Part shown: positions 26,188 to 28,297 of the stretch, one piece after another
How positions within the stretch are numbered: the first letter of the stretch is position 1
Layout: every line of letters begins with the position of its first letter
Assembly (NCBI GenBank): GCA_938074605.1
Contig: CALJEI010000002.1
Span: forward strand, 310,001-374,000
DNA: 64,000 nt
DNA from: an uncultured Ignisphaera sp.
GTDB lineage: Archaea; Thermoproteota; Thermoprotei_A; Sulfolobales; Ignisphaeraceae
Reading direction: 5' to 3'
Notes under the pieces: model-generated
Databases searched by the model: none
Told to the model about the DNA's origin: nothing
The model's input: the letters and a program-made list of their open reading frames with translations, nothing else
Position numbers and translations under genes: made by a program

Positions 26188-26529
26188 ATGGGTAGAATAA
26201 GAAGATCTAAAGAGTTAATAGGTCTGGATCTAGAGTTTTTTAGTAGTGAAGAAAATATTGTTGAACTTATAAAAGTTGTTGAAGAGAGTATAAGGAACGG
26301 CCTAAATGAAATACTTGGTCTTAGAACTAATGAATATGTTATTACAGTAGGTGTTGAAGTAGATAAAGAAGTTCGAATAACAATAGATTTAGATGTAAAA
26401 GCATATTTGTGTAGTAAGATAAATCTCTATAACATTATAGACAAAGTGATTGATAATGCATTCAATAGAGCAAGGATGTATCTTAAACAGCTTGCGGGAA
26501 AAAATACGAATATCAATCCTTACGTCTAA
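26188..26529 (+). CDS. COG2892/DUF3194 family protein
   Basis: A 113-residue protein of the size and position of COG2892 (DUF3194), a conserved unknown that follows prefoldin beta in the archaeal superoperon. Visible features are a helix (IVELIKVVEESIRNGLNEIL), a beta meander (VITVGVEVDKEVRITIDLDVKAY) and a C-terminal helix. The alpha/beta layout resembles Pcc1, but function is not known. Its end overlaps the frame of the DHH gene by up to 80 bases. Confidence 0.65.
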   Translation: MGRIRRSKELIGLDLEFFSSEENIVELIKVVEESIRNGLNEILGLRTNEYVITVGVEVDKEVRITIDLDVKAYLCSKINLYNIIDKVIDNAFNRARMYLKQLAGKNTNINPYV

Positions 26530-27559
26530 GAACGTGACCATCTTACCACATAGCAATGCAGACCCTGACGCTTTAGGTTCCGCATGCGTTTTAGCATACC
26601 TTATAAATAAGATGAACCCTGTAGCTAATGTAAGAATTGTAGTATCTGATGGTATAGGTAGTGAATGTAAAGATATAACTAATCTATGTATTGAGAGAAA
26701 CATAAAGATAGAGACTGTAAAAAGAGTTCAGCAAGTAAAGACTCGTATAGAAGACTTATGTATATTAGTTGATGTAGCTTCTACTGAACAACTAAAGCAT
26801 ACAAAGCCAATACTTACAACCTGTAAAATGATTATGGTAATAGACCATCATGACATACATGACTATGAAGCAGATTTATTAAGTGACAAGGAAGTGGTTT
26901 ATCTCCTAGATCCAGTTGCTTCTTCTACGGCCGAAATGGTGTATAAGCTTATAAATGAATTAAATGTTATGATTGAAGCTGATCTCCTTAAAATTCTTTT
27001 GGCAGGCATTGTATGGGATACTAAGAGGTTCTTAAGGGTATCACCAAATACCTTTAAGTATATTAGTGAAATGATTGAAAGAGGAGTACAATATGTTGAA
27101 GCATTGAAAATAATTGAGAATGTAAGGCCCATTTATAGTAGAATAGCAAGAATTAAGTGTTTACTTAGGCATAGGGGATTTAGAGCTACTATAAACAATA
27201 GAGAGGTTTATATTGCAATTTCTGAAGTAGGGGCTTATGAATCAGACTGTGCCACTGCACTACTTACAATGGGTTATGATGTTGCATTTATAATTAATAT
27301 GGATGAATCATTAAAAATGATAAGATTCATATACAGAGCTCGTGAGAATATCATAGAGGATTTACAATTAAATGTTTATGAAAATATCATTAAAAAATTG
27401 ATTGATTTATTTGGAGGTAGTGGAGGTGGTCATAAAGGAGCAGGAGGTGCAATTTTAAGAATATTTAACATGGAAGTAGTTGTTACTGAAATTATAAAAA
27501 TTTTGAATACAATATCAAATAATAATCTCACTGAATTTGTAGAAAATAAAGTAGGGTGA
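26450..27559 (+). CDS. DHH-family phosphoesterase (NrnA/RecJ-like)
   Basis: A DHH/DHHA1 protein of up to 369 residues. DHH motifs: ILPHSNADPDALGSACVLAYL (Asp in NADPD), CILVDVAST, and VIDHHDIHDYEADL carrying the DHH triad near residue 130; the DHHA1 end has the GGSGGGHKGAGGA motif. Such enzymes are Mn-dependent nanoRNases or pAp phosphatases. The start is uncertain: TTG 26450 is the longest frame, TTG 26492 or GTG 26534 would reduce the overlap with COG2892. The TGA stop is in the same frame as the following XPF gene. Confidence 0.88.
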   Translation: MIMHSIEQGCILNSLREKIRISILTSKNVTILPHSNADPDALGSACVLAYLINKMNPVANVRIVVSDGIGSECKDITNLCIERNIKIETVKRVQQVKTRIEDLCILVDVASTEQLKHTKPILTTCKMIMVIDHHDIHDYEADLLSDKEVVYLLDPVASSTAEMVYKLINELNVMIEADLLKILLAGIVWDTKRFLRVSPNTFKYISEMIERGVQYVEALKIIENVRPIYSRIARIKCLLRHRGFRATINNREVYIAISEVGAYESDCATALLTMGYDVAFIINMDESLKMIRFIYRARENIIEDLQLNVYENIIKKLIDLFGGSGGGHKGAGGAILRIFNMEVVVTEIIKILNTISNNNLTEFVENKVG

Positions 27560-27565
27560 AGATGT

Positions 27566-28297
27566 ATAGTTATAGTTTATGTTGATGAACGCGAAAAAAA
27601 GTCTTCTGTTCCAGATTTTCTCAAATCAAAGGGTATTACAGTACTTTTTAAACAACTTAGTGTTGGTGACTATGTGATCTCTAGCGTAATAGGCATAGAG
27701 CGAAAGACAACCATTGATTTTGCAAAATCGTTAGTTGATGGAAGATTATTTGATCAAGCTAAAAGAATGAGTGAAACATTTGAAAAACCAGTAATAATAA
27801 TAGAAGGAAAATTTGAAGATGCTCAAAAATTTGTTAAAGTACATAGAAGTTCTATACTTGGTGCTTACATAACTTTAGGTATTGAAATGAATATAACACT
27901 TATTCAATCTAGAAATGAGGAAGAAACAGCTGAAATCATAAAAAGAATTGCCCTATATCAACAAAGGATATATAGATCATCCATAATACCAAAACCTACT
28001 CTAAAAGATGATAAGGGTAGTATAGCTGAGTGGCAATTATCTATTCTTCAATGCTTTCCATATATAGGGCCAAAAATAGCCAAAAGAATTATTGAAAGAT
28101 TTCAGACCCTCCGTAATTTTTGTAATGCCTCCATAACAGAATTATCGAGAATTGAAGGCCTTAGTGAAAGAAAGGCTACCGAAATATACCAGATCATAAA
28201 TTCGCCCTCCGCAGAGACTTATAAAATTAGTAAAAATAAGCATATAATAGACTATATAAAAAGGAAGGAGGACAGTGACAATAATGACAAACAATAA
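27566..28297 (+). CDS. xpf: XPF/ERCC4-family 3'-flap endonuclease, apparent AUA start
   Basis: A 243-residue short-form crenarchaeal XPF if started at ATA 27566. The nuclease domain has VYVDEREKKS, QLSVGDYVIS and the ERKx3D motif IERKTTID, then LVDGRLFDQ; the tandem HhH domain is LQCFPYIGPKIAKRIIERF...LSRIEGLSERKATEIY. It cleaves flap and branched DNA with PCNA. The first ATG/GTG/TTG in frame is GTG 27674, which would delete the DEREK catalytic strand and GDY. Upstream there is an in-frame TGA at 27557 (the DHH stop), and GGGTGA (27554-27559) lies 6 bases before ATA 27566. Either a rare AUA start or a one-base sequence error; a C-terminal basic/acidic tail ends the protein. Confidence 0.85.
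   Translation: MVIVYVDEREKKSSVPDFLKSKGITVLFKQLSVGDYVISSVIGIERKTTIDFAKSLVDGRLFDQAKRMSETFEKPVIIIEGKFEDAQKFVKVHRSSILGAYITLGIEMNITLIQSRNEEETAEIIKRIALYQQRIYRSSIIPKPTLKDDKGSIAEWQLSILQCFPYIGPKIAKRIIERFQTLRNFCNASITELSRIEGLSERKATEIYQIINSPSAETYKISKNKHIIDYIKRKEDSDNNDKQ

Follow-up and report, generated by a model that had tools for sequence, protein, structure and literature searches.

The XPF (ERCC4-type) endonuclease gene of a draft Ignisphaera genome is probably translated from an AUA codon at position 27566, a near-cognate start behind a strong Shine-Dalgarno (SD) sequence; we give this reading a probability of about 0.8. The identity of the codon, the SD sequence, the spacing between the two, the homologous position of the codon and its recurrence are read directly from the DNA. 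About a dozen near-cognate starts (ATA, CTG and ATT) occur in the same genome, which points to a genome-wide habit and not to a peculiarity of XPF. Positions without a contig refer to the window, the whole 64,000-nucleotide stretch that was analysed (G000:C2:310001-374000, where G000 is the draft genome).

Results

XPF follows a gene for a DHH-family phosphoesterase (26450-27559, plus strand; taken from the ORF listing, with weak matches to DHH-type families, e.g. NrnA and RecJ), whose 3' end, at 27559, is GTAGGGTGA. The DHH ORF terminates at TGA 27557-27559, so its stop codon falls inside the GGGTGA that serves as the SD sequence of XPF (27554-27559, plus strand), as an earlier note on this DNA had proposed. 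The same note placed this ribosome site 6 bases before ATA 27566, and the distance is exactly 6 nt. Counted from GGTG, the spacing is 7 nt, the commonest in the genome, and the DHH end-to-ATA distance is 9 nt. Read directly, the junction is AAAGTAGGGTGA AGATGT ATA GTT ATA GTT TAT GTT GAT GAA CGC GAA AAA. Direct reading also bears out the claim that the XPF frame has no ATG, GTG or TTG from the TGA to GTG 27674-27676 (plus strand). This first canonical in-frame codon lies 38 codons into the open frame, too far downstream for the start; the DEREK and GDY motifs are indeed encoded 5' of it and would be lost.

The ATG at 27562 is, as had been noted, one frame off and gives only 7 codons. It opens a mini-ORF (27562-27585, plus strand; ATG TAT AGT TAT AGT TTA TGT TGA) and is not the start. 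Its nearness to the SD sequence could suggest that ribosomes initiate there and shift by +1 into the XPF frame. However, the mini-ORF frame would replace the conserved VIVYV of the first beta-strand before closing, just 3 nt separate GGTG from the ATG, no slippery site was seen, and the relative G001, described below, has no such ATG. Initiation at 27562 followed by a frameshift is thus hardly credible.

From the ATA, XPF (27566-28297, plus strand) comprises 243 amino acids plus a stop codon. The ERCC4 domain (PF02732, E=2.2e-31) spans residues 6-127 with 109 bits against a cut-off of 24, and the HhH domains are represented by an HHH_5 match of 37 bits against a cut-off of 27. The NCBIfam model for archaeal Xpf (NF040956) scores 184 bits with 2-216 of its 222 positions aligned, which is below its equivalog cut-off of 300 bits; the name Xpf therefore rests on the domain and the alignment, not on the equivalog. 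XPF shares with the archaeal Xpf/ERCC4 nucleases the DEREK and GDY...ERK motifs, the C-terminal HhH and an N-terminus at the first position of the model, and differs from them in its start codon. Residue 2 aligns to model position 2, so the ATA sits at the Met1 of the model. These features bear on whether XPF is decaying, its start codon lost and no protein made. The sister genome has ATG, from which ATA differs by a single transition. On the other hand, the 243-codon frame is open and carries full ERCC4 and HhH domains, the genome has no other XPF match, and both the SD sequence and the optimal spacing are retained; decay is about as improbable as the frameshift.

The codon aligned with the XPF ATA is ATG in nine of the ten other Ignisphaera genomes (G002-G010), including the closest relative, Ignisphaera sp. 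SKYB63 (G008, 72%), and XPF of the genus begins M-V/P-x-V-Y-V-D-E-R-E. In the tenth, G001, which is approximately 50% identical and not sister to G000, ATA is found at the same codon (AAGGGTGATATAA ATA ACC GTT GTT TAT GTT GAC GAA CGT). In G001 an in-frame TAA directly precedes this ATA, DHH and XPF are not in the same frame, and no further canonical start follows until codon 29, within the conserved domain. In a tree of XPF and PurQ, the sister of G000 is G008 and that of G001 is G003, both with ATG, so the XPF ATA probably arose twice; support for the node that unites these pairs is weak (0.42). A search of genomes of the order with an ATA pattern modelled on XPF matched only G000, and missed G001 because its spacing is one nucleotide shorter. 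The earlier note had held that relatives with ATG at this site would speak against AUA initiation. Nine such relatives exist, which is literally what it described, but they show only that ATG is ancestral. AUA initiation at 27566, the note's proposal, remains the best reading.

The start codon of purQ also varies within the genus. Its position is fixed, mostly behind GAGGTGA-N6 (G000:C2:277028 in G000), and within Ignisphaera the codon is CTG (G000 and G009), ATA (G004 and G007), ACG (G008), GTG (G001, G002, G003 and G010) or ATG (G005 and G006). The SD sequence is GAGCTGA in both species with ATG, and also deviates in G003 and G010. When 117 genomes of the order were searched for the pattern GTGA-N6-start followed by the PurQ N-terminus, the matches comprised seven near-cognate codons (three ATA, two CTG, one ACG and one ATT) and seven canonical ones. 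The ATT is in G097 (C14:157278-157322), which belongs to another family of the order, and near-cognate starts may thus extend beyond the family of Ignisphaera. G027 (ACG) and G032 (ATC) may be further near-cognate purQ cases.

Near-cognate starts were then sought across the genome by comparing 1.585 Mb of G000 with 1.2 Mb of the 1.88 Mb of G009 (about two-thirds); the other genomes were sampled at XPF and purQ only. Stop-to-stop frames were used, and conserved coding sequence was sought 5' of the first canonical codon in non-overlapping homologous pairs. Start codons were assigned from homology and SD sequences, and the families of near-cognate genes were named from Pfam/NCBIfam profile matches. 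Many first-pass candidates were removed as SD sequences translated by accident or as opposite-strand shadow frames. About a dozen of the 887 compared G000 genes lack a canonical start, a rate of approximately 1.2-1.4%. The clear cases all have GGTG at 7 nt. ATA is found at XPF, the ABC ATPase g10565, g3012 (ATG in G009) and g7587; CTG at purQ (CTG in G009), the LivF-like ATPase g9242 (TTG in G009), the (d)CMP kinase g5090 (TTG in G009) and g10235; and ATT at the oligopeptide-ABC ATPase g8022 (ATG in G009) and the DUF2118 protein g923 (ATT in G009). Likely cases are the PLP enzyme g8383, with CTG at 8 nt and ATG in G009, and hisC, with ATT in both genomes behind an SD sequence of a different kind. 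In G009, near-cognate codons are found at a glycogen-synthase-like gene, named by reading of the sequence (ATA; TTG in G000), and at the homologues of g1788 (ATA) and g6899 (ACG).

The distance from GGTG to unambiguous canonical starts in G000 peaks at 7 nt (53/147), and this spacing was therefore chosen beforehand. Where a G000 gene lacks a canonical start, the codon at GGTG+7 differs from AUG by a single mismatch in 11 of 13 instances, against a background frequency of 0.167 (p=1.6e-7, like the other p-values uncorrected for the 11 spacings), with the caveats that the ACG of g4818 is doubtful and that g5090 is counted twice (CTA and CTG). G009 has a single-mismatch codon at this spacing in 5 of 9 instances (p=0.012). 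A weak excess is seen in G000 at 8 nt (3/4, p=0.016), and no enrichment was detected at any other spacing from 3 to 13.

This pattern bears on two further explanations. The first is occasional readthrough of the DHH TGA at 27557, which would yield XPF as part of a DHH-XPF fusion without a start of its own, as might be imagined from the shared frame of the two genes in G000, with only TGA AGA TGT between them. No near-cognate codon at +7 would be required for a fusion, yet such a codon is present in all but two of the instances above; in addition, the two frames differ in G001, where TAA directly precedes the ATA, and nine relatives carry ATG at the XPF start. A fusion is accordingly very unlikely. 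The second explanation is a consensus error, in which the real sequence has ATG at 27566, or lacks one base after ATG 27562, so that XPF starts in the ordinary way. The assembly is a draft, this codon is ATG in the closest relative, and a reported frameshift in Sulfolobus aIF1 proved to be a sequencing error (PMC8211752). However, G001 independently has ATA at the same codon, and the XPF site fits the genome-wide pattern of spacing. The purQ CTG and the g923 ATT are common to G000 and G009, so such cases cannot be base errors. The missing or extra base suggested in the earlier note, giving ATGATAGTT, is not needed, and the Met would come one residue earlier than in relatives of the genus. An error at the XPF codon is unlikely, if less so than a fusion, and initiation at AUA is preferred.

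Changes in the genetic code or in initiation factors were also considered. Internal ATA codons of G000 align in G009 with I (67%), V (13%), L (9%) and M (2%); ATA thus aligns with Ile, indicating a standard code, and reassignment of ATA to Met was ruled out, Met accounting for 2% only. Loss of aIF1 was ruled out because aIF1 is present in 13 of 13 genomes searched.

Upstream genes often end close to the near-cognate starts. At XPF, LivF and g8022 the upstream stop precedes the start by 9 nt and falls inside or adjoining the SD sequence. The upstream-stop distance computed for purQ, cmk and g923 is +5; on reading of the sequence, purS overlaps the purQ SD sequence and start codon, its end being 5 nt past the first base of that codon, so a terminating ribosome would sit on the purQ start codon. 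In 7 of 12 near-cognate genes, versus 101 of 339 canonical genes, the start lies within 20 nt of the end of an upstream gene that is supported by homology. Coupling is therefore common but not required, and these counts rule out translational coupling as the sole cause.

Several further loci have unusual 5' ends. The gene g4111 (G000:C6:22145, plus strand) and its G009 homologue, read as archaeal tRNA-guanine transglycosylase, have neither a canonical nor a near-cognate codon at the expected Met; the frame opens after TAG with AGT/GTT TGT TTC, and the only TTG is out of frame. The 2-isopropylmalate-synthase-like gene g10622 (G000:C2:155920, minus strand) reads GTG GTC TAG AAA, with an in-frame TAG at codon 3, versus GTG GTC AAG AAA in G009. 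No clear canonical start is seen in one or both genomes for g9249 (G000:C2:112713, plus strand), g9868 (G000:C2:126681, minus strand), g10097 (G000:C2:303851, minus strand) and g4025 (G000:C6:153730, plus strand), which by reading are homoserine-kinase-like, threonine-synthase-like, cation-efflux-like and PheS-like, respectively. The cbf5 gene (g5092, G000:C6:90496, minus strand) is split in G000 and G009; an intron is a known feature of archaeal cbf5, and the gene was set aside for that reason.

Discussion

A mechanism for XPF can be proposed from the arrangement of the junction. The small ribosomal subunit, or the ribosome finishing DHH at TGA 27557, would pair with GGGUGA, and at the standard spacing this pairing would bring the AUA into the P site. 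Met-tRNAi may then initiate on the AUA despite the third-position mismatch because SD pairing, often with nearby termination, keeps the codon there. The start of XPF would in that case be coupled to termination of DHH, and the product would begin Met-Val-Ile-Val-Tyr-Val-Asp-Glu-Arg. Output of XPF is probably lower than with AUG. Against initiation on the AUA stand base 27568, which comes from one draft assembly while the closest relative has ATG, and the presence of aIF1, a factor disfavouring non-AUG complexes. In vitro archaeal systems likewise disfavour non-AUG codons, with aIF1 disfavouring non-AUG complexes.

Near-cognate initiation as such is already known. Among 61,358 ancestral AUG starts in 36 genome triplets, there were two AUG-to-CUG switches and one AUG-to-AUU switch. 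In E. coli, the AUU starts of infC and pcnB limit expression and are isolated regulatory cases under bacterial IF3, absent from archaea. XPF resembles them in its near-cognate start and differs in that it is no translation factor. Besides pcnB, PMC13009471 describes Staphylococcus aureus infC, ccpN, citZ and cvfC1, for which AUA/AUU starts with an extended SD sequence are proven and give approximately 10-30% of the AUG output. The Ignisphaera genes are like these in that near-cognate AUA/AUU codons are placed by a strong SD sequence and conserved between species. Unlike the four bacterial genes, which were established experimentally, they belong to an archaeal genus, number about a dozen per genome, include CUG and ACG, and are known here from sequence. 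No report of routine AUA, CUG or AUU starts in archaea was found in the open-licence literature, and their routine and interchangeable use throughout an archaeal genus seems to be new.

Common gene finders accept AUG, GUG and UUG starts only. A review of archaeal initiation names the same three codons, with SD sequences or leaderless (PMC7531240); the GGTG-type SD motif of XPF and its spacing are standard by comparison, whereas its start codon is outside the described set. Near-cognate genes are consequently liable to truncation, omission or pseudogene calls, which suggests that a number of public Ignisphaera proteins carry wrong N-termini.

The finding of AUA, CUG or AUU at about 1% of the compared genes, with ACG in relatives, indicates that near-cognate codons are among the normal options for initiation in Ignisphaera. 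A genus with this proportion of near-cognate genes, among them purQ, (d)CMP kinase and XPF, offers a natural system for questions about aIF1, aIF2 and SD sequences in start stringency. A broader proposal, which we advance tentatively and consider somewhat less than an even prospect, is that Ignisphaera, and perhaps neighbouring families, have relaxed start selection, such that AUA, AUU, CUG and ACG may be interchangeable wherever a strong SD sequence is well spaced. If true, a conserved gene such as purQ would have a start that drifts among at least five codons, and relaxed selection would imply an altered archaeal initiation machinery or an altered reliance on SD pairing.
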